Assembly: GCF_001523745.2 (NCBI RefSeq)
Contig: NZ_CP013387.1
Coordinates: 2,170,001-2,234,000, forward strand
DNA length: 64,000 nt
Reading direction: 5' to 3'
Source of the DNA: Burkholderia mayonis
GTDB taxonomy: Bacteria; Pseudomonadota; Gammaproteobacteria; Burkholderiales; Burkholderiaceae
The position numbers were made by a program, and so were the translations under genes. Shown here one piece after another: positions 29,796 to 42,662 of this stretch (position 1 is its first letter; each line of letters starts with the position of its first letter). The notes below the pieces were generated by a model, which ran no database searches, was not told where the DNA came from, and was given only the letters and a program-made list of their open reading frames with translations.

Positions 29796-30398
29796 TCAAT
29801 GCCCCAACACCGAATACGCGAGCGAGCCCGAAAACGTCGCGAGCACGAGCGACGCACAGCGCATGAACGTCGACGTATGCGCGGCCCACGAACGCTGCGA
29901 CGTCAGCAGGCCGCCGAGACTCGACCAGCCGACGCCGATCGGCGCCAGCACGACCAGGAACGCGACGACCGCCCATCCGAAGTAGCTGAGCGACCTGAAC
30001 GCTTCGAGCGGGAACATCGTGCTCGCGAACAGCAGCGCCTTCGGATTCATCAGTGTCGCGACGAACAGGTCTCCGAAGCCGATCGGGCCTGCGGACAGGT
30101 CGTGCAGCGCGCGGCTCTTCGTCCACATCTTGACTGCGAGCCACAGGATGTATGCGGCGCTCAACAGCTTGATCGTGCCGAAGAGCCACGGCCGGCTGGC
30201 CGCCACCGACAGCAGGAAGAATCCCCATAGCGAGATCGCGGCGACATAGCCCAGCGCCTCCGCAATCACGAGGCGCCAGGTGCCGCGCAGGCCGACCTTC
30301 AGGCCCGACGACAGCAGCAGCGTGTTCGTCGGCCCCGGCACGATCAGCACGAGCGACACGTAGAACGACATCTTGAGCAATGCATCCTGAATGAGCAC
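29796..30398 (-). CDS. LysE/RhtB-family amino-acid exporter (last gene of the halogenase operon)
   Basis: 200 residues with six membrane segments and the LysE/RhtB signature near the N-terminus (VSLVLIVPGPTNTLLLSSGLKVGLRG) and LFVATLMNPKALLFASTMFP in the middle. The family exports free amino acids such as homoserine, threonine, lysine or cysteine derivatives. It begins 36 bp after the cupin stop, same strand, so it is probably cotranscribed with the halogenase genes. This fits a product that is a small free amino acid, and could also give self-protection. Confidence 0.9.
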   Translation of the reverse strand: MLIQDALLKMSFYVSLVLIVPGPTNTLLLSSGLKVGLRGTWRLVIAEALGYVAAISLWGFFLLSVAASRPWLFGTIKLLSAAYILWLAVKMWTKSRALHDLSAGPIGFGDLFVATLMNPKALLFASTMFPLEAFRSLSYFGWAVVAFLVVLAPIGVGWSSLGGLLTSQRSWAAHTSTFMRCASLVLATFSGSLAYSVLGH

Positions 30399-30434
30399 GG
30401 CGCCTCCTCGGTTCGTCGGTCTCGTTGGTAGCCG

Positions 30435-30881
30435 TCATCGTTCGGTCGCCGACGCGGACGAAGCCGCGGCCGACGCGCCGGCGAAATAGCGATTGCCGCC
30501 CGGCGCGAGCCAGTCGGCCCGCAGCGGCGTGAACACGTCTAGATCGACTGCGTCTTCGAGACACAGCGCGTTGTGCGGCACGTTCGCGGGAATGTGCAGG
30601 ATCTCGCCCGGCCCGACCTCAGCCTCGTGCTCGAGTTGCACGCCGTAGCGGAACAGCAGGCACCCTTCCAGGATGTAAGTGAATTGCTCGTTCGGATGCG
30701 AGTGCGTCCCGACGAACGCGCCTTTCTTCAGGAACAGCTTCGCCATCATCAGCGCGTCGCCCGAGACGACCTGCCGCTCGATCCGATCGGTCAATACTTC
30801 GCGCTCGACCCAATCCCATGCGCCGAAACCTCGTTCATTCAAACCGGCCACGATTGCCTCCTCGTTCGATCGTTCGATCAT
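30435..30881 (-). CDS. Cupin-domain protein
   Basis: 148 residues, single cupin barrel. Metal-binding motif 1 is GTHSHPNEQFTYILEG (two His and a Glu in the HxHx3-5Ex6G pattern) and motif 2 is GEILHIPANVPHNAL, with the third His. Fe(II), Mn(II) or Zn(II) binding is likely. Roles in such operons range from dioxygenase to isomerase or a non-catalytic binding role; none can be chosen. It sits 20 bp after the aldolase and before the LysE exporter. The start is ATG 30881 (MIERSNEEAIVAGLNERGFG). Confidence 0.85.
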   Translation of the reverse strand: MIERSNEEAIVAGLNERGFGAWDWVEREVLTDRIERQVVSGDALMMAKLFLKKGAFVGTHSHPNEQFTYILEGCLLFRYGVQLEHEAEVGPGEILHIPANVPHNALCLEDAVDLDVFTPLRADWLAPGGNRYFAGASAAASSASATER

Positions 30882-30901
30882 GTGAAGCAGCGCCCGCGCG
30901 C

Positions 30902-31945
30902 CTACGCGGACAGCTCGCGAATCCGCACGCCGTCGGTCGCGCGCTGTGCGTCCCGCTCGCGCGCGAGCCGGCTCGCCTCTTCGATGATGATGTCTTCCTG
31001 TCCGGCGACGAGCTTGCGCTCCGCGAGCCGCTTGTACAGCTCGAACTCGTTGACGTCGAACTCCTGCGCCGCCTTCTGGATGTGCGGCACATAGCCGGAG
31101 AAGAGTCCGTACAGCCCGCTCGCGATGTTCGCCGGCTGGATGTGCGCCGTCTTGGGATTCAGGAATGCGTCGGTGCTGCGCGCGAGCGTCATCACAAGCT
31201 CGAACGTCGTGCGCGTGTCGTGCCCCTCCCGCTCCATCGCGGCGACGAGCGTCTCGAGCTGCGTGTTGCCCGCACCCGCGCCGAAGCCCTTCACGCATGC
31301 GTCGACGATGCGTGCGCCCGCTTCGAGCGCGACGAGACTGTTCGCGACCGCGAGCCCGAGGTTGTTGTGCGCGTGAAAGCCGACGTCGATGTCGAGGCCG
31401 TCGACGAGACATTCGACTTTCGCGCGCACGAGCGACGGCGTCGAATAGCCGGCACTGTCCATCAGCACCACCGCCTGCGCACCATAACGTTCCATCAGCC
31501 GGGCCTGCGCGAGCAACACGTCGGGCGGCGCCATGTGCGACATCATCAGCACACCGAACGCCGTCCGGCCGGCGAGCCTTGTCTGCTCGATGAAGCGCGC
31601 AGATACGTTCGCCTCGGTGCAATGCGTCGCGACGCGCACGACGTCGACGCCGGTCTCGAGCGCGAGCGCGATATCCGCCGCCTTGCCGAGCCCAGGAATG
31701 AAATGCACGCCGAGCCGACTCGTGCGCAGCGCGGCGCGCGCGGTCTCGAGCATCATGCGATCGCCAATAGGCGTCTGCCCGAGCAGGCACGACGAGCCGC
31801 CGAGGCCATTGCCATGCCCGACTTCGACGACGTCGATGCCCGCGTCGTCGGCCGCGCGCGCATACGCATGAATCTGCGCGGCGCTCAGTTGATGGCGAAT
31901 CGCGTGGTTGCCGTCGCGCAAGGTCGCATCGCTGATCAGTATCAT
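30902..31945 (-). CDS. 4-Hydroxy-2-oxovalerate aldolase (DmpG/BphI-type)
   Basis: 347 residues, full length. The DRE-TIM aldolase signature ISDATLRDGNHAIRHQLSAAQIHAYARAAD is at the N-terminus, and the Mn-binding HxH is in DVGFHAHNNLGLAVANSL. The C-terminal communication domain (NIASGLYGLFSGYVPHIQKAAQEFDVNEFELYKRLAERKLVAGQED) is the part that contacts the aldehyde dehydrogenase partner. It interconverts 4-hydroxy-2-oxoacids with pyruvate plus an aldehyde. Start and the partner gene's stop overlap by 4 bp (ATGA), so the complex subunits are coupled. No hydratase or ring-cleavage genes are nearby. Confidence 0.95.
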   Translation of the reverse strand: MILISDATLRDGNHAIRHQLSAAQIHAYARAADDAGIDVVEVGHGNGLGGSSCLLGQTPIGDRMMLETARAALRTSRLGVHFIPGLGKAADIALALETGVDVVRVATHCTEANVSARFIEQTRLAGRTAFGVLMMSHMAPPDVLLAQARLMERYGAQAVVLMDSAGYSTPSLVRAKVECLVDGLDIDVGFHAHNNLGLAVANSLVALEAGARIVDACVKGFGAGAGNTQLETLVAAMEREGHDTRTTFELVMTLARSTDAFLNPKTAHIQPANIASGLYGLFSGYVPHIQKAAQEFDVNEFELYKRLAERKLVAGQEDIIIEEASRLARERDAQRATDGVRIRELSA

Positions 31946-32835
31946 TGTGTGGCTCCTTGTCTGGCGGTTGCATGCCGATGCGAAGCGACCGCGAGCGCCG
32001 CGCAATTGATGATGTCCAGATTGCCCGCGTACTCGGGCAAATAGTCGCCGCGCCCGCGCACCGTCAGGCCGATCGTGATCCTGCCCTGGCTCTCGAGCGG
32101 TTCGACGACGAGCCGATAGCCGGGTACGTATTCGCGAACCTTCTCGACCATGTCGGCGACGCACGCTCGCACCCGGTCGAAATCTCGATAGCGCGCATAC
32201 GCATAGAGCGTCGTCTGCATCCGCACGCCGGGCTCGGCAGGATTGATGTTGAGGATCGCCTTCGTCTTCTTCGCACCGCTGAACTTCGCAAGCGCGTACT
32301 CGGTCGTCGTCATGTACTCGTCGATGTTCTCGCGCGTCGCGATGCCTGCGCTGCGCGACGCGATCGCCGACACCACCTCCAGGTACTCGATCTCGTCGAC
32401 CGCCTGCTTCAACGCGTACGCGAGCGGCAGGCTCGCCTGCCCGCCGCAGGTAATCAGGTTCACGTTCTGCTCGGCGCCCATGTCGTCCAGATTGATGCAC
32501 GGTACGCACAGGCGTCCGAGCTTCGCCGGCGTCAGGTCGATCACGAACTTGTCCGCACCCGAGAAGAAGCGATTGTTGAGCTTGTGCGCGGCGGCGGACG
32601 TCGCGTCGAACACGAGGTCATACGCGTTCTCGTGCTCTTTCAGGAAGTCGAGCCCGTCGCTCGACGTCTCGACGTTGCAGCTTCGCGCAAGCTTGAGACC
32701 TTCGCTCTGCGCATTGCGTCCGACGACAAACTTCAGATCGAATTGTTCGGATGCCTTGATTTTGAACATCAGATCGAGGCCGATGCTGCCCGATCCGAGG
32801 ATCGCCACGCGCGTTCGCGATGACTTGTTCTTCAT
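31942..32835 (-). CDS. Acylating acetaldehyde dehydrogenase (DmpF/BphJ-type)
   Basis: 297 residues. NAD-binding start VAILGSGSIGLDLMFKIKAS, catalytic Cys in VNLITCGGQASLPL and the family region DLTPAKLGRLCVPCINL. It interconverts an aldehyde with its acyl-CoA using NAD(H), channelling the aldehyde to or from the aldolase. Both neighbours overlap by ATGA: the thioesterase upstream (stop at 32832) and the aldolase downstream. In catabolic meta-cleavage pathways the pair ends a degradation chain. Here, next to a carrier protein and a halogenase, the reverse (biosynthetic) direction is plausible. Confidence 0.94.
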   Translation of the reverse strand: MKNKSSRTRVAILGSGSIGLDLMFKIKASEQFDLKFVVGRNAQSEGLKLARSCNVETSSDGLDFLKEHENAYDLVFDATSAAAHKLNNRFFSGADKFVIDLTPAKLGRLCVPCINLDDMGAEQNVNLITCGGQASLPLAYALKQAVDEIEYLEVVSAIASRSAGIATRENIDEYMTTTEYALAKFSGAKKTKAILNINPAEPGVRMQTTLYAYARYRDFDRVRACVADMVEKVREYVPGYRLVVEPLESQGRITIGLTVRGRGDYLPEYAGNLDIINCAALAVASHRHATARQGATQ

Positions 32836-33674
32836 GTTTCGCTCTCCTCCGTCAAATGACGCACGTGCGCCGTCGCATCGCGCGTGCCGCTCGGCCCGCC
32901 CGCCGCGTCGTGCGCGAGCAGACGCTCCAGTTCGCGACCGACTTCGGCAAGCACGCGGTCTTCTTCGCTGTGCATAAAGAAATGGCCGCCGGAAAACCCG
33001 GCGTAACGCACGAGCCCGCTCGTCTCCGCGAGCCAGCCTTCGAGCCCGGCATCGCTGACGAGGCCGTCGTTCGAGCCGTGCAGCACGAGCATCGGGCAAT
33101 CGAGCGGCGGCGCCTCGACGTAGCGGTACATCGCCGAGATCGTCAGATCAGCGCGCAGCCGCGGCAGCCACAGGTCGCGCAACACCGGATCGGCGATCAG
33201 CGCGTCGGGCGTGCCGTTGTAATCGCGCACCGCGGCGATGAACGCGTCGTCGGGCAGCGTCTGGATGCCCGCGTCCCGCCATTTGAAGCGCGGCGCGCTG
33301 CGACCCGACGCGACGAACAGCGATGGTGTCGCGAAACCGCGCGCGCGCAGCAAGCGTGCGAGATCGAACGCGATCAGCGCGCCCATGCTGTGGCCGAAGA
33401 ACGCGTAGGGAAGATCGAGCAGCGGCGGCACGGTTTCCGCGAGCGCCGCAACGATCGGCTCCGCCTGCTCGATCAACGGCTCGCCGAGCCGATACTCGCG
33501 GCCGGGCAGTTGCACCGCGACGACTTCGACCCAATCCGGCAAGGCGCCGGGCCACGTCCGGAAGATCGACGCGGTCGCGCCCGCGTAGTGGAAGCAGAAG
33601 AGACGCACGCGCGCGTTGCGCGCCGCATGGACGATCAGCCACGGCGAATCGGCCGCCGATTCACGTGCGTTCAT
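32832..33674 (-). CDS. Type II thioesterase, copy 2
   Basis: 280 residues from ATG 33674. Alpha/beta-hydrolase of the GrsT-like type II thioesterase family: VRLFCFHYAGATASIFRTWP, the nucleophile box FFGHSMGALIAF, then Asp in VLHGSNDGLVSDAG and His in FSGGHFFMHSEEDRVL. These enzymes clear or release aminoacyl chains from carrier proteins. It closely resembles the other thioesterase in this operon (35321-36118), including the shared LFCFHYAG and PGRE.RL.EPL blocks, so the two are likely duplicates. A 30-residue polar tail (AGGPSGTRDATAHVRHLTEE) is extra. Start and stop overlap neighbours by 4 bp. Confidence 0.92.
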   Translation of the reverse strand: MNARESAADSPWLIVHAARNARVRLFCFHYAGATASIFRTWPGALPDWVEVVAVQLPGREYRLGEPLIEQAEPIVAALAETVPPLLDLPYAFFGHSMGALIAFDLARLLRARGFATPSLFVASGRSAPRFKWRDAGIQTLPDDAFIAAVRDYNGTPDALIADPVLRDLWLPRLRADLTISAMYRYVEAPPLDCPMLVLHGSNDGLVSDAGLEGWLAETSGLVRYAGFSGGHFFMHSEEDRVLAEVGRELERLLAHDAAGGPSGTRDATAHVRHLTEESET

Positions 33675-34615
33675 GACCGTGCTCCGTCGCGTGCCGGCAC
33701 CGGCACGGGCGTGAGCCAGTTCCACTTGTCCGCATGCGTGCCGCGCACGATGCCGAAGTACTGATCCTGGATCGCGTTCGTCACCGGGCCGCGCTTGCCG
33801 CTGCCGACCGGCATCCTGTCGACCGAGCGCACCGGGCAGATCTCGACCGCCGTCCCGGTAAAAAAGATCTCGTCGGCGAGATACAGCATTTCGCGCGGCA
33901 TGCTCGTTTCGGTCACGGTGTAGCCGAGGTCGCGCGCGATCCGGATCACGCAATTGCGCGTGATGCCGCTCAGGATGCTGCTGCCGATCGAAGGCGTGAA
34001 GATCTCGTTCTTGTAGACGAGGAACACGTTCTCGCCGCTGCCTTCGCTGACGAAGCCGTTCGCGTCGAGTGCGATGCCCTCGCTCATCCCGTTCTCGTGC
34101 GCCTCCATCACGATCGCCTGACCGTTGACGTACTGGCCGCCAATCTTCGCGAGCGTGCTCGCCGCACCCGAGCCGTTGCGCCGCCAACTGCTGACCTGCA
34201 CGTCGACGCCCTGCTGGAGCGCCTCGTCGCCGAGATACGCGCCCCACGGCATGGTGACGAGCAGCGCTTCGGCCGGGCACTGCCGCGCATCGAGTCCGAG
34301 CGATTCGCCCGCGCCGCGATAGACGAGCGGCCGGATGTATGCGCTGCGCTGACCGTTCGCGCGCAACGTCTCGACGGTGGCTTCCATCCACTGCCCGACG
34401 CTCATCGGCGACGGAATCCGCGCAACCTTGCAGCTGAACAGCAAGCGCTCGAAGTGCTCGCGGCCACAGAGAATCGCCGCTTTGTCGCCGATCTCGTATG
34501 CGCGCACGCCCTCGAACACGCTGGTCCCGTAATGCAGCGCATGGCTCATCACATGTATCTGCGCGCGCTCCCACGGCACCAGTTCGCCGTTCTTCCACAC
34601 ATAGCTCGCTTTCAT
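33671..34615 (-). CDS. Class IV (branched-chain-type) aminotransferase
   Basis: 314 residues from ATG 34615 (MKASYVWKNGELVPWERAQI), with gaggagcg upstream. IlvE-type fold: HALHYGTSVFEGVRAYE, RLLFSCKVARIPSP, the PLP lysine in STLAKIGGQYVNGQAIVMEA, then SEGSGENVFLVYKNEIFTPSIGSSILSGITRNCVI (phosphate-binding). It should interconvert a 2-oxoacid and an L-amino acid with glutamate. Its position between an RraA-type protein and the aldolase pair suggests that it aminates the 2-oxoacid made by the operon. A housekeeping IlvE role is less likely given the context. Confidence 0.92.
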   Translation of the reverse strand: MKASYVWKNGELVPWERAQIHVMSHALHYGTSVFEGVRAYEIGDKAAILCGREHFERLLFSCKVARIPSPMSVGQWMEATVETLRANGQRSAYIRPLVYRGAGESLGLDARQCPAEALLVTMPWGAYLGDEALQQGVDVQVSSWRRNGSGAASTLAKIGGQYVNGQAIVMEAHENGMSEGIALDANGFVSEGSGENVFLVYKNEIFTPSIGSSILSGITRNCVIRIARDLGYTVTETSMPREMLYLADEIFFTGTAVEICPVRSVDRMPVGSGKRGPVTNAIQDQYFGIVRGTHADKWNWLTPVPVPARDGARS

Positions 34616-34629
34616 CGCTGTTACGCTCC

Positions 34630-35313
34630 TCACATGACGTTGTATTGATTAAATGCGTCGACGACGCTGCGGCCTTCTGCGATCGCGTCCCGAACCTTGC
34701 GCTCGAGCCGGCTCTTCACGATCGCTCGCTTGATGACCTCCTGCTCGGCTTCACGCGGAATCACGCAGACGCCGTCGCCGTCGCCGAAGACCAGATCGCC
34801 GGGCCGGATCCGAACGTGGCCGACAGTAATCGAGCAGCGATAGTCGACGACGTTGTGACGGCCTTGCAGTCCGTACGCGTACGAGCCGTGTGCGAACGCC
34901 GGCAGCTTCAGATCGAGAATCGCGTTCGCGTCGCGCAGGTGCGCGTTGAGCACGACGCCCGCCGCGCCCAGCTTGCGTGCGCGCGAGATCAGCAGATCGC
35001 CGAGCCGCGCGACTGCGGTCGGACCGCCGCTCGCGATGTAAATCTCGCCGGGGCGTAGCGCCTCGACCGATTCGAACAGCAGTCCGAACGGCTTCGCGTC
35101 GTAACGCTTGAGGCCGCCGTGCGGCACGGGCGGCTCGTCCTGCACCGGCATCGCGCGGCCGATCATCACCATGTCGCGACGCAGCGGGCGGATCTCCGGC
35201 GGCAGCATCGGGTCAGCGAACCCGAGCTGCTCCATCACGTCGCTGACGGGACAGGTCGAGAGCTCGGCGCGCATCAGCGCGAACAGCTCGCCATCTGAAT
35301 TCCACTGCGCCAT
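34630..35313 (-). CDS. RraA / HMG-aldolase-like protein
   Basis: 227 residues. Matches the RraA/4-hydroxy-4-methyl-2-oxoglutarate aldolase fold: STCPVSDVMEQLG at the start, SGGPTAVARLGDLLISRARKLGAAGVVLNAHLRDANAI (the Arg-Asp pair of the active site) and IRPGDLVFGDGDGVCVIP. Enzymes of this class are divalent-metal pyruvate aldolases or oxaloacetate decarboxylases; others regulate RNase E. The usual DG before the RD is replaced (NAHLRD), so activity needs testing. Position between thioesterase 1 and the aminotransferase suggests a step on a 2-oxoacid intermediate. Confidence 0.85.
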   Translation of the reverse strand: MAQWNSDGELFALMRAELSTCPVSDVMEQLGFADPMLPPEIRPLRRDMVMIGRAMPVQDEPPVPHGGLKRYDAKPFGLLFESVEALRPGEIYIASGGPTAVARLGDLLISRARKLGAAGVVLNAHLRDANAILDLKLPAFAHGSYAYGLQGRHNVVDYRCSITVGHVRIRPGDLVFGDGDGVCVIPREAEQEVIKRAIVKSRLERKVRDAIAEGRSVVDAFNQYNVM

Positions 35314-35320
35314 TTGTCTG

Positions 35321-36118
35321 TTATCCGATTAGAGTGGAGCTCGCGTCGCTCAAGAGCGGCTCGAGCTCGCGGTTGATGTGTTCGAGCACCGACGCCTCTT
35401 CGTCGTGAATGAAGAAGTGGTCGCCGGGAAACCGGTAGCGCGCGAAACTCTGGCGCGTCTCGCGCACCCAGCCGGCGAGCCCGTCGTCGTGCACGAGACC
35501 GTCGTCGACGCCGTGAAAGACGACGATCCGGCAATCGAGCGGCGCCTGCCGCTCGTAGCGATACGTCTCGAACACCGCGCCGTCCGCGCGAATCCGCGGC
35601 AGCAGCAGCTCGAGCAGCGCCGGATCCTCCAGAATCGCATCGGGCGTGCCGTTGCAGCCGCGCAGCACCTCGACGAACTCGGCGTCCGACAGCCGATGTC
35701 GAATCACCTCCGGCTTCACGTCGGGCGCGTTCTGCGCGGACGCGATCAGCAGCCGCGGCTGCGAGTGAGCACGGGCGCGAAGCACCCGTGCGACCTCGAA
35801 GCCGATCAGCGCGCCCGTGCTGTGCCCGAAGAACGCGAACGGCCGATCGAGCAGCGGTGCGAGCGCGTCGACGAGCGGCGATGCGACTTCGTCCATCGAG
35901 TACAGGAGCGGCTCGTTCAGACGATTCTCGCGGCCGGGCATCTGCACGGCGACGAGCTCGACCTCGTCCGGCAGCGACGCGGCCCAGTGCCGGAAGATCG
36001 ACCCGCCGCTGCCTGCATAGTGAAAGCAGAACAGCCGGATTCGCGCGTCGGGCTTCCGTTCGTCGGCGCCGAACAGGAACCAGCGGGCCTCGCATGCATT
36101 CATGTCGGCACCGTCCAT
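35321..36118 (-). CDS. Type II thioesterase, copy 1
   Basis: 265 residues. IRLFCFHYAGSGGSIFRHWA, nucleophile box FFGHSTGALIGFEVARVL, Asp in VFHGVDDGLVHDDGL and His in FPGDHFFIHDEEAS make a complete Ser-Asp-His triad of the GrsT-like family. It likely hydrolyses the carrier-bound aminoacyl thioester, either to release product or to edit. It starts 3 bp after the halogenase stop. An in-frame ATG at 36103 (MNACEARW) is an alternative start. It pairs with a second, similar thioesterase downstream. Confidence 0.92.
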   Translation of the reverse strand: MDGADMNACEARWFLFGADERKPDARIRLFCFHYAGSGGSIFRHWAASLPDEVELVAVQMPGRENRLNEPLLYSMDEVASPLVDALAPLLDRPFAFFGHSTGALIGFEVARVLRARAHSQPRLLIASAQNAPDVKPEVIRHRLSDAEFVEVLRGCNGTPDAILEDPALLELLLPRIRADGAVFETYRYERQAPLDCRIVVFHGVDDGLVHDDGLAGWVRETRQSFARYRFPGDHFFIHDEEASVLEHINRELEPLLSDASSTLIG

Positions 36119-36121
36119 CGC

Positions 36122-37027
36122 TTAAGCGAGCGCCGCCACGGCGGCGAGCGGCTTCGTCACGCGGTTATGGCCATAGCGGTCTTCGCCCGCCACCAGCACC
36201 GTCGCGTAGCGCTCGAGCGGCAGCACTTCACCGAAGTGGTGGAACGAGTCCTGGCCCGAGTAGACCTTGACGTGGGTCGGCACGAAGCGCGTGGCCCAGC
36301 CGAAGCGCACCGAATCCTTGCTCGTGTTCGCATTCGAGCCGTGCATGCAGCGCGACGTGAAGATGAAGAACTGGCCCGGCTTCACTTCCATGTGCACCGC
36401 ACGCGCCTCATCCGGCTTCCAGTCAGGATCGAGCTTCAGCTTCTCGTAGTCGTAGCCGTAGAAGCCCGACTTCTGGCCGTCGTCGAGCACGCGCTTGTTG
36501 AAGTTCTCCGGCTCGAACGGGATGTTGCGCTTCTCGTCGAAGTACCAGGTGCGGTGGCTGCCCGGCATCAGCTTCAGGCAGCCGTTCTCCTTCGTCGCCT
36601 CGCTCATCGCCACCCACGCGGTCAGCTCCCATGGGTGCCCTTCTTCGGCCGCCGTCGGCTCGAGCTTCTCGGTGCCCTCGAACTCGACGAAGCTCTCGGC
36701 CTGGTGCCAGTCGGTGCCTTCGTCGCCCGGATATTTCGGGAACCATTCGGTGCGCCAGCTCAGCACGTCCGGGCCGAGGATGCTCGAGATCCGGTCGACG
36801 ATCTTCGGATGACTGATGATCTGGTTCAGCGCGGGCATGTCGAGATGGCGGTCGTAGTTGAGCTTGCTGTTCGGGAACGCCGCCCTCGTCACGTCGAGCA
36901 GATCCATTCGCACGTCTTCCCAGACACGGGTCATTTCTTCCGGCTCGTACAGCGTGAACGGACCGGCATAGCCGTTCTCGTAAAAGAACTTCTGCTCGGC
37001 TTCCGACAGGTGAAAACGCTTTTGCAT
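36122..37027 (-). CDS. SyrB2-type non-heme Fe(II)/2-oxoglutarate halogenase
   Basis: 301 residues from ATG 37027, preceded by an excellent ribosome-binding site (taggagaactgat). It belongs to the phytanoyl-CoA dioxygenase superfamily. Where hydroxylases carry His-x-Asp/Glu, this protein has His108-Gln-Ala110 (GTDWHQAESFVEF), which leaves a coordination site open for chloride. The distal His is His229 (SRCMHGSNAN), and Arg241 and Arg247 follow (SVRFGWATRF). Spacing matches SyrB2 (His116, Ala118, His235) closely. SyrB2-type enzymes chlorinate unactivated carbons of aminoacyl groups tethered to a carrier protein. The A and PCP genes directly upstream supply exactly such a substrate. Confidence 0.94.
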   Translation of the reverse strand: MQKRFHLSEAEQKFFYENGYAGPFTLYEPEEMTRVWEDVRMDLLDVTRAAFPNSKLNYDRHLDMPALNQIISHPKIVDRISSILGPDVLSWRTEWFPKYPGDEGTDWHQAESFVEFEGTEKLEPTAAEEGHPWELTAWVAMSEATKENGCLKLMPGSHRTWYFDEKRNIPFEPENFNKRVLDDGQKSGFYGYDYEKLKLDPDWKPDEARAVHMEVKPGQFFIFTSRCMHGSNANTSKDSVRFGWATRFVPTHVKVYSGQDSFHHFGEVLPLERYATVLVAGEDRYGHNRVTKPLAAVAALA

Positions 37028-37043
37028 ATCAGTTCTCCTAAAT

Positions 37044-37060
37044 ATGGCGCAAGGCGCCAT
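37044..37060 (-). promoter_or_regulatory. Intercistronic hairpin before the halogenase gene
   Basis: ATGGCGC (37044-37050) and GCGCCAT (37054-37060) form a perfect 7-bp stem with a 3-nt loop, 16 nt upstream of the halogenase ATG and next to its ribosome-binding site. No U-run follows. It may set mRNA stability or halogenase translation relative to the PCP; speculative. Confidence 0.45.
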
Positions 37061-37120
37061 GTCCTGAAAAATCCGCTTGTCGCGGCCGCCGCTCGCGCGG
37101 CTCGTGAAACGCCCTCCGGA

Positions 37121-37381
37121 TCAGCCCGCGACCGGGGCCGCCGTGTTGCTGAGTTCGCGCAATGCGTCGATTTCGGCGCTCAACGCCATCACCGTCGAGC
37201 GCGTCTTGTCGAAGAACAGCCTCGGAGACGGCGCGACGCCCGTTTTCGCCTTGATCTGCTTCAGTACTTCGACGAGATTGAGCGAATTGCCGCCGATGTC
37301 CAGAAAACGGGCATCGCCCGTCACTTTCTTGGCGCCAATCACGCTCTCCAGAATCTGAATCAACATCGTTTCGGTTTTCAT
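37121..37381 (-). CDS. Free-standing peptidyl carrier protein
   Basis: 86 residues, a four-helix PP-binding domain. The phosphopantetheine site is Ser33 in FLDIGGNSLNLVEV (the usual GGxS). It needs a PPTase encoded elsewhere. Its start overlaps the adenylation-domain stop by 4 bp (ATGA), so equal synthesis with the A domain is expected. It would carry the activated amino acid as a thioester for the halogenase. SyrB1 joins A and T in one protein; here they are split. Confidence 0.94.
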   Translation of the reverse strand: MKTETMLIQILESVIGAKKVTGDARFLDIGGNSLNLVEVLKQIKAKTGVAPSPRLFFDKTRSTVMALSAEIDALRELSNTAAPVAG

Positions 37382-38967
37382 GAATTCATTTCCTCCTGGT
37401 TACTTTCGTTGATGCGTTGTTGCAATATCGACAGAAGCGCTTTGCGATCCGTCTTTCCCGACGACAACTGCGGAAACCGCTCGAGAACCGTGACGTGGCG
37501 AGGCATCATGTAGGCGGGCAGCTCCGCTGCGAGGCGTTGCTTGATCTCATCGACCTGCAGGTCGGCATCGAGCGACGCGCCCCGCTCGAACAGCACGCTG
37601 GCGGCGAGCAGCGTCTCGCCGTAGCGCGATTCGAGCAGCACGACCTCCGATCCGTACACGTGCGGCACGCTGTTGATGACCCGCTGGATTTCGCTCAAAT
37701 GGATTCGATAGCCACCGATCTTCACTTCGTTGTCTTTGCGGCCCATGTAGTACAGGCTGCCGTCGGCGAGATACGTGCAGACGTCGCCCGTCCGATAGAA
37801 CGGCACGCCGTCCAGACGAACGAGCCGCGCCGCCGTCTCCTCCGGCAAATTCCAGTAGCCCTGCATCACCTGCGTGCCGCCGATCATCAGCTCGCCCGGC
37901 ACGCCTGGCGCCGTGATCCGCTCGCCGCGCTCGTCGACGAGCAGCGCCCGCACGTGTTCGAGCGGCTTGCCGATCGGATAGAGCGCGCGCCGCTCGGGCT
38001 CGATCTCGCGAATCACGTGCGCAGTCGACGCGCAGGTCGCCTCGGTCGGACCGTATGCATTGATCACCTGCACGCCCGCGTTCTTCCTGAGCCAGCGCTG
38101 GATCGTCTTCACGTCCGGCACGTCGGTGCCGGTGAGGATCGTCTTCAGGTGCGGCAGCGGCGCGGTCTCAAATTCGCCCGCCTGCGCGATCAAGCCGAGC
38201 ATCATGCCCCACGCGGAGAAATGCGTGACGTCGTGCGTGCGAATCGCGTCGAACAGCAAGTCGGGCGCGTTCACGTCGTCGTGCACGTACAAAGACGCGC
38301 CCTGCGCGAGCGGGAACAGCATGTCCATCAGATACACGTCGAAATGCAGCGGCGAGAAGCTCGCGCATCGGGATTGCGACGTGACGTCGTAGACGACGCG
38401 CGTGCCTTCGAAGAAATCGGCGATGCTGCGGTGGTTGATCAGCACGCCTTTCGGGCGGCCGGTCGAGCCGGATGTGTAGATGCAGTACGCGATCGCGGTT
38501 TCGTCGAGCGGCGGCAGCGGCAGCGGCTGCACGAGCGCATCGAGCCGTGCCGAATCGTCGTCGGCGAGGAGCCGCTCGAGCGCGCTTACCGGCAGGATCG
38601 GCGCAGCGGACGGCAGCGCGTGCTCGAGCGCGTCGGTCGAGTCCTCGTCGGCGATCACGAGCGTCGGCGCAACGTCGTGCAGAATGTAGCGCAGACGGTC
38701 GGCCGGCAGGCGCGGATCGAGCGGCACATGTACGCAGCCCGCCCTGAACACGCCGATGATCGCCGCGACCAACAGTGCGCGGCGGCTCGCCAGCATCACG
38801 ACGCGATCGCCCGGGCGGCAGCCCAGCTCCTGCAGACGCATCGCGAAACGGGTGCTGAAACGGTCGAGATCGGCGTAGCTGAGATTGCCGCGTGAATCGG
38901 ACAACGCGCATTTGTACGGCGTGCCGAACGCATGAGACTGGATTGCTTGAACGATGTGTCTGGCCAT
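37378..38967 (-). CDS. Free-standing NRPS adenylation domain
   Basis: 529 residues from ATG 38967 (MARHIVQAIQ). All adenylation motifs are visible: A3 YTSGSTGRPKGV (164-175), A4 FSPLHFDVYLMDML (204-217, with Asp210 at the amino-group-binding position), A5 NAYGPTEATC (303-312), A7 YRTGD (391-395), A8 KIGGYRIHLSEI (416-427) and A10 Lys505 in LSSGKTDRKAL. Asp210 argues for an alpha-amino acid substrate; the side-chain code cannot be read with confidence. It activates the amino acid with ATP and loads the PCP. The protein has no condensation or thioesterase domain. It is the first gene of the operon. Confidence 0.94.
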   Translation of the reverse strand: MARHIVQAIQSHAFGTPYKCALSDSRGNLSYADLDRFSTRFAMRLQELGCRPGDRVVMLASRRALLVAAIIGVFRAGCVHVPLDPRLPADRLRYILHDVAPTLVIADEDSTDALEHALPSAAPILPVSALERLLADDDSARLDALVQPLPLPPLDETAIAYCIYTSGSTGRPKGVLINHRSIADFFEGTRVVYDVTSQSRCASFSPLHFDVYLMDMLFPLAQGASLYVHDDVNAPDLLFDAIRTHDVTHFSAWGMMLGLIAQAGEFETAPLPHLKTILTGTDVPDVKTIQRWLRKNAGVQVINAYGPTEATCASTAHVIREIEPERRALYPIGKPLEHVRALLVDERGERITAPGVPGELMIGGTQVMQGYWNLPEETAARLVRLDGVPFYRTGDVCTYLADGSLYYMGRKDNEVKIGGYRIHLSEIQRVINSVPHVYGSEVVLLESRYGETLLAASVLFERGASLDADLQVDEIKQRLAAELPAYMMPRHVTVLERFPQLSSGKTDRKALLSILQQRINESNQEEMNS

Positions 38968-39594
38968 CTGACTGAATCCTCTTTGCGATGTCTCTTTACG
39001 GGCACCTTCGAGATTCAGGCGGCATTGCGCACCGGCAGACGAGCGAACGACCCTGCATGCGCGCCTGCGATGCACGTCCGTTCGTCAACGACTACCGGCC
39101 CCTCGTCGTTTGACTGCTTGCTGCTTTCTCTCAGACTGCTGACTGCTTGTTCGAATCGTTCTGCCGATGCGCCGCCGATCTGTCGATGGAGCGGCGCGCC
39201 CGCGCTCGGATGCAACGCCGGCGAGCGCGCATCGAACAGGCGGGTGCGTGTTGTGCGGCGTCGGCTCGAATGCGCGTCGTTCGTCGCCGCATTCGTTGAT
39301 TGATAGGCTAGATGAAATTCCCCGTGGAATTACTTAGATCACTTCCAGAATATACCTGCACGATTTCAGCGCGATCGAAGAATAAGGCCGAAGTAGTTAT
39401 TTAAGCGTTTGTTGATGTCTTTTTTGGCAATCTAAATAAATACGTGGATCGAAGTGTGCCGCTTCGCATGCGGTTATGTTTGTTTGCACGACTGGAAAGC
39501 GCTGCGCCGCATTGAATGCGCGCCAAAAAAGAATGAAAGCGCATCTCGCCACAGGCTCGATGCGCTTGCCGATTCGACGCGCGACATTTTCGCA
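38968..39594. other. Upstream region of the halogenase operon, AT-rich in part
   Basis: No gene is supportable in these 627 bp. 39300-39470 is markedly richer in A/T than the neighbours. An inverted repeat AATTCC-CCGT-GGAATT (39316-39331) stands about 350 bp upstream of the adenylation gene and could be an operator or a hairpin. A TATATT on the minus strand near 39350 is a weak -10 candidate. The long leader suggests regulation, but no specific site can be assigned. Confidence 0.5.
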
Positions 39595-40469
39595 TCACGC
39601 GCGTTGTAATCCGATGCGTTTCATTTCGTCAGCCAAATAATCGACGAACGACACGACTCGTGACGAGATCGCCGTATTGCGGTAATAAACCGCGTGAATC
39701 GGCTGCAACACTTCGCACGTCAGGCGTGGAAGCAATTGCACGAGCCGCCCTTCGTCGCGGGTCTCCCGCGGTCATGAAGCCGGACAGGCAAGCGATTCCC
39801 GCACCCTGCAGCGCGAGTTGCCAGAGCGTTTCGCCGCTCGACGACGTCAGCGCCGGCGCGATCCGGTACGGCTCGCCGTCCCACGCGAGCACCGGCCACT
39901 GATCCAGCGATTCCGGCTGGTTGAAGCCGAGGAGCGCGTGCTTGCCGAGGTCGTCGACACGCCGCGGAGTCCGTGCGCGTCCAGATACTCAGGGCTCGCA
40001 AGGAGCCTCACCCGGCTGCTGCCGATCGCACGGCTATGCAGCGTCGAATCCTTCAGGCGACCGATCCGGATCGCGACGTCGGTGCGGCGTTCGAGCAGAT
40101 CGATGATCTCGTCGTTGCTGTTGAGCTCCAGTTCGACGTGGGGATAGCGCGAGCGATAGCCGTTTACGAGCGGCACGACGACATGCAGCACGAACGGCGT
40201 CGCGGCATCGACGCGCAGCCATCTGTTCTTCCGCACGCTCGACCGATTCGATGATTGCACGCGCGTTCTGCAGGAATGCGCGTCCCTCCTCGGTCGGTTC
40301 CAGACGACGCGTCGTCCGGCGCAGCAGCGTCCTGCATCTTCTTCTCGAGCCGGCCGAGCGTACGGCTCGTCGCCGACACGGTCAGGTCAAGCTGCTGCGC
40401 GGCCGCCGTGATCGATCCCGTGTCGACCACGATCGCGAATGTCTGCAATTCGTCGAGCGTGATTTTCAT
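39595..40469 (-). pseudogene. LysR-family regulator, multiple frameshifts
   Basis: Pieces of one LysR protein appear in order but in at least three frames. The helix-turn-helix MKITLDELQTFAIVVDTGSITAAAQQLDLTVSATSRTLGRLEKKM starts at 40469 and is followed by a frameshift. The middle is LRVDAATPFVLHVVVPLVNGYRSRYPHVELELNSNDEIIDLLERRTDVAIRIGRL. The later effector part is IAPALTSSSGETLWQLALQGAGIACLSGFM, and the tail FVDYLADEMKRIGLQRA ends at 39595. It lies between the halogenase operon and the decayed MFS gene and was probably the divergent regulator of the latter. It cannot make a full regulator. Confidence 0.88.
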
Positions 40470-40571
40470 GCTTGATTTCAAATCAAAAGTATTTCGCTTA
40501 TAGACCGCTTATTCATCAAAAGTAAAGGGCGCACGCTCCGCTTCGCCTCCATCGATGCCGGAACCGCCATC

Positions 40572-41735
40572 ATGCCCGTCGCCCTCCTCGCGCTGACGCT
40601 CAGCGCCTTCGCCATCGGCACGGCCGAGTTCGTGATGCCGGCCTGATTCCCACCTTCGCAGCCGCTCTCTGGGTAAGCCTGCCGTCCGCCGGGCTGCTCG
40701 TGAGCCTTTACGCGCTGAGCGTCGCTGTCGGCGCGCCGCTGCTGACCGCATTGACTGGCCGCGTGCCGCGCAAGACGCTGCTCACCGCACTGATGGCGCT
40801 CTTCACGATCGGCAACCTCGTCGCATGGCGCGCGCCCGGCTATGAGCCGCTGATCGTCGCACGCGTGCTGACCGGGCTTGCGCACGGCGTGTTCTTCTCG
40901 ATCGGCTCCGTGATCGCGACGACGTTCGTGCCGAAGGACAAGACCGCAAGCGCGATCGTGACGATGTTCAGCGGAATGACCGTCGCGTTCGGCGCCGGCA
41001 TTCCGCTCGGCACTTTCATCGGCCAGCACTTCGGCTGGCGCACGACGTTCGTCGTCGTCGCAACGTTCGGCGGCGTCGCGCTCGTCGGCGCGCTCGAATT
41101 CATCCCGCGCAGCCTCCCGCATGCGCGCCCCGCGCCGCTCGTCGAGCGGGCCCGTGCGCTCGCGCATCCGCGGCTCCTGCTCGTCTATGCGATGACGGCG
41201 ATCGGCTATGGCGGCTCGCTGATCGCGTTCACGTTCATGGCGCCGTTCGTCGAGCAGATCGCGGGCTTCACGCCGTCGCAGGCGAGTCTCGCGCTCGTCG
41301 CCTACGGCGTGTCGGTCGCGGCCGGCAACGTCTGGGGCGGCAAGCTCGCGGATCGTCTCCGCCCGGTCGGCGCGCTGAAGCGCATCTTCCTGCCGCTCTC
41401 GGTCGGGCTGTTCGCGCTGACCTTCACCGTCCACCACGCGGCGCTCGCGATATCGACGATGTTCGCCTGGCGCGCCGTCGCGTTCGGTAACGCGCCGGGT
41501 CTGCAAGACTACGGCGTCAAGCAGGCGCGGCACTTCGCGCCTCGATCGTCGGAAGTCGCATCGGGATTCAACATCGCCGCATTCAATCTCGGCGTCGCGG
41601 GCGATTCGTCGCTCGGCGGGCTCGTCGTCGCGCACGCCGGCCTCGGCCACACGCCGCGGATCGCAGGCACGGTCACGCTCGGCGCGCTCGCGCTAACGGC
41701 GCTGAGCGGCCGCCTCGATCGATTCGAACGCCAAC
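40572..41735 (+). pseudogene. MFS (DHA1-like) transporter, frameshifted near the start and truncated at the end
   Basis: The start MPVALLALTLSAFAIGTAEFVM at 40572 runs into a TGA (40644-40646), where functional relatives continue through EFVIMGLLPT. The remaining protein continues in another frame: PSAGLLVSLYALSVAVGAPL, LTALTGRVPRKTLLTALMALFTIGN and so on through eleven or so helices to ALSGRLDRFE. At 41735 the sequence switches into the old-yellow-enzyme remnant. The family are drug or sugar efflux pumps. It is inactive as written. Confidence 0.85.
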
Positions 41736-42275
41736 ATGCGAACCGACGCATACGGCGGCTCGCTCGAGAACCGCTGCGCTTCCTCGGTGGCGTCGCGCGC
41801 GCTGATCGAAGGCACAGGCGACGCCGCGCGCGTCGGCATCCGTCTCGCGCCGCTGACGACGCTCAACGGCTGCGTCGACGCCGATCCCGAGACGACGTAT
41901 GCCGCGGCCGCGAAGCTGCTCGACGAAATCGGCGTCGGCTACATCCACATCGCCGAAGCCGACTGGGACGACGCGCCGCACATGCCGGTGTCGTTCAAGC
42001 AGCGGCTGCGCGCCGCCTATCGCGTCGTGATGATCTACGCGGGCAAATACACGGCGGGGCGTGCACGCGAGGCGATCGCCGCAGGCTGGGCCGACCTGAT
42101 CGCGTTCGGGCGTCCGTTCGTCGCGAATCCGGATCTGCCCGCGCGGATCCGGCAGCATGCGCCGTGGAATGCGCATCGGCGCGAGACGCTGTTCGACGGC
42201 GATGCGCGCGAACTCACCAATTACCCGTCGCTCGCGGAGGAAGCCGCGATGCCGGTCGCCGAACGCGTCGAGTAA
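41736..42275 (+). pseudogene. Old yellow enzyme (NemA-like) C-terminal half, fused by deletion
   Basis: About 180 codons match the C-terminal half of FMN-dependent ene-reductases: RTDAYGGSLENR, VGIRLAPLTTLN, YIHIAEADWDDAP and the flavin-binding end YAGKYTAGRAREAIAAGWADLIAFGRPFVANPDLPARI. The entire N-terminal half is missing and the sequence directly continues the MFS gene, so a deletion joined the two. The ATG at 41736 is not a natural start. Non-functional. Confidence 0.85.
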
Positions 42276-42296
42276 GCATGGCGAGCGGCGCTGCCG

Positions 42297-42662
42297 TCAT
42301 TCTTCGACGGCCTGCCTGAGCCGCAGCAGCGCCTGATCCCACTGCCGCCCGATCGCTTCCAGCGCCGCCCGCGCCGCGTCGATTCGCGCGGGCTCGAAGC
42401 GCCACAGCCGCTCGCGCCCGACCCTCGTGTCGCGCACGAGCCCCGCTTCCGCAAGCACCTGCAGATGCTGCGTGACCGACTGTCGCGTGATGTCGGTGCC
42501 CGCGGTAATCTGCGCGATCGACAGCGCCGCCCCCGTGCACAGCGCGGCGACGATCCGCAGGCGGGTTTCGTCGCCGAGCGCGGCGAACACCGCCGCGCAA
42601 TCGCGCAGCTGCGCGCGCTTGAGCGGCGCGCGCGACGGCCGCCCGTCAGCGCGCGTCGACAT
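42297..42662 (-). CDS. ArsR-family transcriptional regulator
   Basis: 121 residues, winged helix: FAALGDETRLRIVAALCTGAALSIAQITAGTDITRQSVTQHLQVLAEAGLVRDTRVGRERLWRFEPARI. No Cys pair of the metal-sensing type is evident, so it is the kind paired with SRPBCC (AHSA1) proteins, not arsenic. Its start overlaps the end of the SRPBCC gene by 17 bp, so they are coupled and likely control each other. Confidence 0.92.
   Translation of the reverse strand: MSTRADGRPSRAPLKRAQLRDCAAVFAALGDETRLRIVAALCTGAALSIAQITAGTDITRQSVTQHLQVLAEAGLVRDTRVGRERLWRFEPARIDAARAALEAIGRQWDQALLRLRQAVEE

Follow-up and report, generated by a model that had tools for sequence, protein, structure and literature searches.

What does a halogenase operon make when no peptide-forming module accompanies it? 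This question is raised by a compact operon of Burkholderia mayonis. It lies within a 64,000-nucleotide stretch of contig NZ_CP013387.1 (positions 2,170,001 to 2,234,000; G000:C2:2170001-2234000 in our genome set; hereafter the window), in a genome of 6.59 Mb on two contigs. The operon encodes free-standing adenylation (A) and peptidyl carrier (PCP) proteins, an Fe(II)/2-oxoglutarate (2OG) halogenase, two thioesterases (TE1 and TE2), an RraA-family protein, a branched-chain aminotransferase (BCAT), an acylating aldehyde dehydrogenase (ALDH), an HOA aldolase, a cupin and a LysE-type exporter. An earlier note, written from the letters alone, proposed that a carrier-bound amino acid is chlorinated, released by hydrolysis and exported. 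The free-standing A protein, PCP and halogenase, the thioesterases and the exporter agree with this route, but it is incomplete, as a second locus appears to belong to the pathway too. Our sequence analysis suggests a conserved two-part pathway, of which the operon is one half, leading to a small and free antimetabolite of the leucine type. The balance of probability tips modestly toward this reading.

In the proposed pathway, the A protein would load leucine or a close analogue onto the PCP. The halogenase would chlorinate a side-chain methyl group, as BarB1/BarB2 do on leucine, and TE1 would free the chloro amino acid. BCAT would interconvert it and its 2-oxo acid, on which RraA would work through a metal enolate. 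A flavin monooxygenase would tailor the product and LysE would export it. The carbon skeleton would be supplied or extended by ALDH and the HOA aldolase in the window form of the cluster (form I), or by a LeuA-like protein in a second form (form II). The target would be leucine use, most likely by leucyl-tRNA synthetase (LeuRS), as hinted by the spare LeuRS genes that related clusters carry.

The operon behaves as a unit across genomes. Homologues of the halogenase were found in 19 of 65 genus genomes (E<=1e-20). Six of these, including the window genome, carry it at 90% identity or more, and the other 13 at 47% or less. RraA (E<=1e-40) is present in 6 of the 65, the identical set of six. Homologues of the HOA aldolase (E<=1e-60) occur in 51 of the 65, and identity of at least 82% (82-96%) is confined to the six halogenase bearers; the next best is 42%. 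The set of genes and their order recur in the five further genus genomes. Among the near-identical halogenases listed are those of B. oklahomensis (97%) and of one record labeled B. pseudomallei (95%). A family sample of 398 genomes, which does not include G014, contains eight halogenases at E<=1e-120, of which five share at least 90% identity and the remaining three 56-58%. Each of these last three (G076, G106 and G154; loci L116-L118) has one in-frame TGA inside the match, which perhaps overruns the stop codon.

A wider scan of genome contigs gave 235 confirmed halogenase relatives, and the best 80 were kept. Seven of these 80 combine the halogenase with the same RraA clade (at least 65% identity). 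They are two Ramlibacter metagenome-assembled genomes (L016 and L023), four alphaproteobacteria (L017, L018, L020 and L021) and an acidobacterium (L019). L018 is from the cultured Breoghania corrubedonensis DSM 23382. Of the Ramlibacter loci, L023 holds all 11 genes and L016 holds 10, in the order of the window operon. Together with the six genus genomes, the seven loci make 13 clusters; L026 (Breoghania sp.), where only a PCP and, in two pieces, a halogenase matched, was left out of the count. The A protein, PCP, halogenase, RraA and at least one thioesterase are present in all 13, and two thioesterases in 12 (L019 has one). In L017 and L021 the examined stretch ends within the A gene. The operon was found in none of the plasmid records at the sensitivities used, the best being one record that matched 2% of it; 27 plasmid records carry a halogenase, each below 60% identity. 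These clusters outline a family of compact, uncharacterized pathways in betaproteobacteria, alphaproteobacteria and an acidobacterium.

Two cluster forms and a second locus

The clusters fall into two forms. Form I, in the six genus genomes and the two Ramlibacter loci, has ALDH, the HOA aldolase, the cupin and LysE. In form II (L017-L021; four alphaproteobacteria and the acidobacterium), a LeuA-like protein takes the place of ALDH and the HOA aldolase. Within the examined locus stretches each cluster has one or the other, and none has both. The LeuA of L018 (417 residues) matches the catalytic HMGL domain and then HCS_D2; no other Pfam domain, and so no regulatory domain, was matched. The enzyme may therefore be released from feedback by leucine.

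LeuRS is encoded in four of the five form II loci. The L018 protein scores 653 bits against the bacterial leuS model (cut-off 548). Directly before HMGH, all four cluster enzymes read YPPFPSG, compared to MLPYPSG in the housekeeping LeuRS of the window genome. Segments TTRADT and HDERD are likewise altered in the four, with HMGH and KMSKS unchanged. We take the altered segments to belong to the leucine pocket and the editing site. In L017 (14513-16339), an NtaA/DmoA-type monooxygenase carries a fused GNAT acetyltransferase domain. L020 (14561-16399) looks alike by eye, and L019 (14015-14647) encodes a GNAT protein alone. Self-protection in a small amino acid pathway would be expected to take such a form, with an altered LeuRS and a neighboring N-acetyltransferase. 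The probable target, leucine use by LeuRS, may thus be read from the relatives. The window genome has one LeuRS and no second; three weaker partial matches (26-31% over short parts) were taken as other synthetases.

The neighborhood of the operon points to additional pathway genes. In G014, G015 and G027 (L098-L100), a LuxR-type regulator lies upstream of the operon, and a flavin reductase, a luciferase-like monooxygenase of the NtaA/DmoA family (TIGR03860) and a 3-hydroxyisobutyrate-dehydrogenase-like gene lie downstream. L098 additionally has a phosphopantetheinyl transferase (PPTase) beside the operon. In Ramlibacter, LuxR, the operon, the flavin reductase and the monooxygenase are contiguous. 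In the window genome, the LuxR, flavin reductase and monooxygenase genes are located with a PPTase (PF01648) and an MFS transporter at about C2:2610400-2618300, roughly 0.4 Mb from the operon. The two parts are also separated in G035 (about 0.8 Mb) and in G017 (about 0.4 Mb). Orthologues of the monooxygenase at E<=1e-215 were found in 7 of the 65 genus genomes, the six operon bearers (at least 84%) and G062. We conclude that this second locus (monooxygenase, flavin reductase, PPTase and LuxR), which lies outside the window, probably belongs to the pathway. In three of the six operon-bearing genus genomes, a cluster finder would then catch only half of it.

The two loci of the window genome share a leader. 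The A-gene leader, together with the first codons, recurs ahead of the second-locus flavin reductase, with 136 of 165 bases matched (score 85). The same comparison gave 153 of 215 bases (score 61) in L128 and 121 of 145 (score 62) in L129, and the best score among 20 shuffles of L114 was 19. The shared leader reads as a scar left when the operon moved away from the second locus. It may instead be a shared regulatory leader, and both may hold together.

Two further observations concern the LuxR-type genes. Branched-chain oxo acid dehydrogenase genes (E2 and Lpd) border the LuxR-type regulator in L098, L099, L100, L114, L128 and L129. G035 has a second LuxR-type gene (L096:16273-17316, 52%) convergent to LysE, and a short remnant stands beside LysE in L097; such a remnant was sought beside LysE in the window and none was found.

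Predicted substrate and enolate chemistry

The substrate of the A protein is probably leucine or a near relative, since the A pocket is common to both forms and the halogenase is closest to BarB1/BarB2. Nine positions, which we take to line the pocket by GrsA numbering, read D-V-M-S-L-G-A-C-A. Eight are identical in all 11 complete A domains of both forms and the ninth in 10 (G in L019). They retain the aspartate expected to bind an alpha-amino group, and the activated compound is therefore probably an amino acid. The pocket in the Moorena bar-type locus L022, D-A-M-A-L-G-G-C-A, has six of nine positions in common with it. On the sequence, leucine would rank first, followed by an aliphatic amino acid of slightly smaller size.

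In the halogenase, H108-Q-A110 and H229 align with SyrB2 and CytC3, with HxA instead of HxD/E and the distal histidine. The enzyme is thus of the SyrB2/CytC3 type and, with A and PCP genes adjoining it, is predicted to act on a PCP-bound amino acid. Its best match of solved structure is CytC3 (290 bits; identity not computed). Identity to the two Moorena bar-type enzymes of L022 is 68 and 70%; a listing names one cluster BarB1. Enzymes of the BarB1/BarB2 type chlorinate leucine for barbamide (PMC3252866).

RraA is expected to form an enolate. By profile alignment, its R127, D128 and E204 correspond to Arg-123, Asp-124 and Glu-199 of the Pseudomonas putida HMG/CHA aldolase 3NOJ, and they are invariant in all 13 clusters. 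In the aldolase, Arg-123 is essential to stabilization of the pyruvate enolate, and Asp-124 and Glu-199 bind the metal (PMC5065237). This leads naturally to the prediction that the core pathway includes an enolate step on a 2-oxo acid, which would explain the adjoining transaminase. Such a step also bears on the final product. The earlier note expected a free halogenated amino acid, which the sister clusters narrow to a leucine-type antimetabolite. Whether chlorine is retained in it is uncertain, because RraA keeps its enolate-forming site and chlorine could be a leaving group.

The HOA aldolase differs from its catabolic relatives in the acceptor pocket. At DmpG positions 88, 90 and 291, all eight operon copies have His, Ile and Phe, whereas all four solved enzymes have Leu, Leu and Tyr. 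These positions presumably equal Leu-87, Leu-89 and Tyr-290 of BphI, with an offset of one. In BphI, Leu-87 and Leu-89 determine which aldehyde is accepted, and the L87N/Y290F and L87W/Y290F variants use the 4R instead of the 4S enantiomer (PMC3962088). As the His/Ile/Phe pocket resembles this engineered, stereo-inverted pair, we predict that the operon aldolase accepts another aldehyde or works on the opposite face, which fits a biosynthetic role. Two steps look new, that of an RraA protein with an intact metal and enolate site and that of an aldolase with a pocket like an engineered variant. The operon would offer three subjects for enzymology: an RraA enzyme that serves secondary metabolism, a pyruvate aldolase whose pocket is altered by nature, and an aliphatic halogenase of the leucine type that works with free-standing partners.

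Operon organization and neighboring genes

Ten minus-strand genes and LysE had been described in the earlier note, and all 11 are present as intact open frames, spanning 38967 to 29796 (Table 1). Its families were all confirmed with Pfam and NCBIfam profiles. It had read the junctions as ATGA overlaps or gaps under 100 bp, which is right. In transcription order they measure -4, 93, 18, 7, 14, -4, -4, -4, 20 and 36 bases, so that four of ten overlap and the largest gap is 93. Compared with two related genomes, dN/dS is 0.05-0.30 for ten of the 11 genes (the cupin was not computed), which indicates that these ten are kept by selection.

Table 1. Genes of the halogenase operon and the shared leader, with positions in the window
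Feature	Position	Strand	Profile matches and remarks
A protein, free-standing, 529 aa	37378..38967	-	TIGR01733 370 bits (cut-off 317), PF00501; pocket D-V-M-S-L-G-A-C-A
PCP, free-standing, 86 aa, serine motif GGNSL	37121..37381	-	PF00550
Fe(II)/2OG halogenase, HQA motif	36122..37027	-	TIGR01762 437 bits (cut-off 226)
TE1, adjoins halogenase	35321..36103	-	PF00975; 45% identity to Moorena bar-locus thioesterase
RraA-family protein, R127/D128/E204 at catalytic/metal positions of HMG/CHA aldolase	34630..35313	-	PF03737
BCAT, IlvE type	33671..34615	-	TIGR01122 373 bits (cut-off 246)
TE2	32832..33674	-	PF00975
ALDH, HOA aldolase partner	31942..32835	-	TIGR03215 398 bits (cut-off 282)
HOA-type class II pyruvate aldolase, acceptor pocket H81/I83/F282, dedicated clade	30902..31945	-	TIGR03217; DmpG communication domain PF07836
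Small cupin	30435..30881	-	PF07883 (Cupin_2)
LysE-type exporter	29796..30398	-	PF01810
Leader and first five codons of A gene	38952..39117	-	136/165 bases matched before second-locus flavin reductase

The absence of a condensation domain also holds for the whole window, in a search that did not cover ketosynthases. The genome gave 27 condensation-domain matches, 26 of them above the cut-off and none inside the window. The nearest one above the cut-off on the replicon is at 1.42 Mb, and the operon is at 2.20 Mb. An Rfam scan of the leader region (38800-39700) gave no matches.

Upstream of the operon, a LysR-type regulator (39629-40481, minus strand) is spread over three separate open pieces, one matching HTH_1 and two LysR_substrate, and looks broken. 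Farther on, an MFS transporter frame (40700-42319, plus strand) matches PF07690 over residues 1-299 of 539, with no Pfam match in the remainder. It may be a decayed or frameshifted neighbor.

Alternative products and known systems

Several observations weigh against the proposed leucine-type pathway. BCAT is present within the examined stretches of 10 of the 13 clusters and absent from those of L016, L017 and L020. ALDH, the HOA aldolase, the cupin and TE2 have no assigned step. G062 lacks the halogenase orthologue and bears a 77% orthologue of the monooxygenase (C3:436273-437598). The window form has no LeuA and its genome no second LeuRS, so the target and self-protection are borrowed from relatives. 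Finally, three of the nine A-pocket positions differ from the bar type, each with a larger residue here, and the substrate may be smaller than leucine.

Such a substrate (norvaline, 4-hydroxynorvaline or 2-aminobutyrate), giving for example gamma-chloronorvaline or 5-chloro-4-hydroxynorvaline, is unlikely but carries real weight. LeuA, by elongation of 2-oxobutyrate, and ALDH/HOA aldolase, from acetaldehyde and pyruvate, would both give a linear C5 2-oxo acid for BCAT to aminate, and the two do substitute for each other at one place. The enlarged pocket residues and the match to CytC3 as the best solved structure point the same way. gamma-Chloronorvaline, in which Cl replaces a methyl group of leucine, is a known natural leucine analogue (PMC8659048). 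However, CytC3 is a more distant relative of the halogenase than the leucine-acting bar-type enzymes are (68-70%). The HOA aldolase would yield a 4-hydroxy acid, unlike LeuA, even though both forms have the same A pocket, and the pocket residues of the aldolase speak against plain acetaldehyde. By analogy with the bar genes and barbamide, the operon could feed a chlorinated unit into an assembly line whose genes lie elsewhere, but we regard this as very improbable. In its favor, four proteins (A, PCP, halogenase and TE1) are similar to those of the Moorena bar-type set, and the genome has its 26 condensation-domain matches above the cut-off. None of those domains is inside the window, the operon has its own exporter, and the form II LeuRS suits a free amino acid and not a peptide unit.

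The enolate site of RraA raises the prospect of cryptic chlorination, in which the halogen serves as a leaving group and the final product is free of chlorine. Ring closure or loss of HCl would then fall to RraA, with the chloro-2-oxo acid as substrate, or to a different enzyme. We consider this scheme distinctly unlikely. The known cyclopropane pathway employs another protein family. No RraA-family cyclase turned up in any search made, and RraA could equally be an aldolase or decarboxylase. It is nevertheless this protein, with its enolate-stabilizing arginine and both metal ligands, that recurs in 13 of 13 clusters, accompanied by the transaminase in 10, and halogenation leading to a cyclopropane is known for CmaB (PMC6864650). 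In a specific version, to which we give low credence, RraA would be recruited as the cyclase. BCAT would make the 2-oxo acid of delta-chloroleucine, the C3 enolate would displace the C5 chloride to close a cyclopropane, and BCAT would then give 2-(2-methylcyclopropyl)glycine or a relative. If so, the product would be a chlorine-free leucine/isoleucine antimetabolite whose ring is closed on the free 2-oxo acid, and the altered LeuRS of sister clusters would guard against it. That ALDH and the HOA aldolase are a meta-cleavage catabolic pair merely standing beside an NRPS-like cassette is hardly credible, even with both proteins above the cut-offs of catabolic NCBIfam equivalogs. The pocket of the aldolase differs from that of the solved enzymes in every operon copy, and the gene order is kept in Ramlibacter. 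We rejected the idea because the aldolase clade is confined, among the genus genomes, to those with the halogenase, at 82-96% against 42% for the next best. Burkholderia plantarii produces iminopyrrolidines (PMC9958762). In our reading their carbon skeleton maps on leucine, but a link to the operon is speculative and was kept as a mere lead, because the operon has no ligase or amidotransferase.

The earlier note did not recognize the gene combination as a described one. Its core of A protein, PCP, halogenase and thioesterase is not new, as it is found in CytC. For the rest, no description was found among the titles and abstract openings listed from open-license PMC papers, with long result lists covered in part (20 of 224 in one case), so absence from print is unproven. 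In the excerpts at hand, a 2023 compilation of Burkholderia antimicrobials contains neither 'chlorin' nor 'antimetabolite', and 'halogen' once, for pyrrolnitrin (PMC9958762).

Five known systems and the self-resistance synthetase clusters invite comparison with the proposed leucine-type pathway. The halogenase cassette has its nearest counterparts in barbamide and CytC. With barbamide BarA-BarD, which makes trichloroleucine, the window operon shares its PCP (49% identity to Moorena L022), halogenase (68-70%), thioesterase (45%) and A domain (50%). It has one halogenase, the single match in its own genome at E<=0.001, and not two as for a CCl3 group. It also has no assembly line, and adds RraA, BCAT, TE2, ALDH, the HOA aldolase, the cupin, an exporter and the second locus. 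CytC of Streptomyces consists of free-standing A, thiolation (T) and non-heme iron halogenase proteins, its substrate is 2-aminobutyrate and its product gamma,gamma-dichloroaminobutyrate. The window operon likewise has an A protein, PCP, halogenase and thioesterase without a condensation domain, but its halogenase stands nearer to the bar type than to CytC3. CytC is not known to include RraA, BCAT, a second thioesterase, ALDH/HOA aldolase or a monooxygenase. A free chlorinated antimetabolite from a free-standing cassette is the subject of the title of Ueki 2006, among the references of PMC6864650.

The coronamic acid system (CmaA-E and CmaT) resembles the proposed route in that an aliphatic amino acid is loaded by A-T, chlorinated by a SyrB2-type enzyme and released by a thioesterase. 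Judged by family profiles, no family in the operon is known to be that of the cyclase CmaC or suggests one, and ring closure is hypothetical here. As for self-resistance, the window form lacks a second synthetase in cluster and genome, whereas form II has an altered one in four of five loci. The operon RraA has the enolate-stabilizing arginine and both metal ligands of the HMG/CHA aldolase, and differs in forming its own tight clade tied to the halogenase. Like DmpFG, the window operon has both subunits, the communication domain and the catalytic motifs. Its aldolase, however, belongs to a dedicated clade (42% or less to others in the genus) in a biosynthetic operon, and the catabolic pocket of Leu/Leu/Tyr is replaced by His/Ile/Phe.

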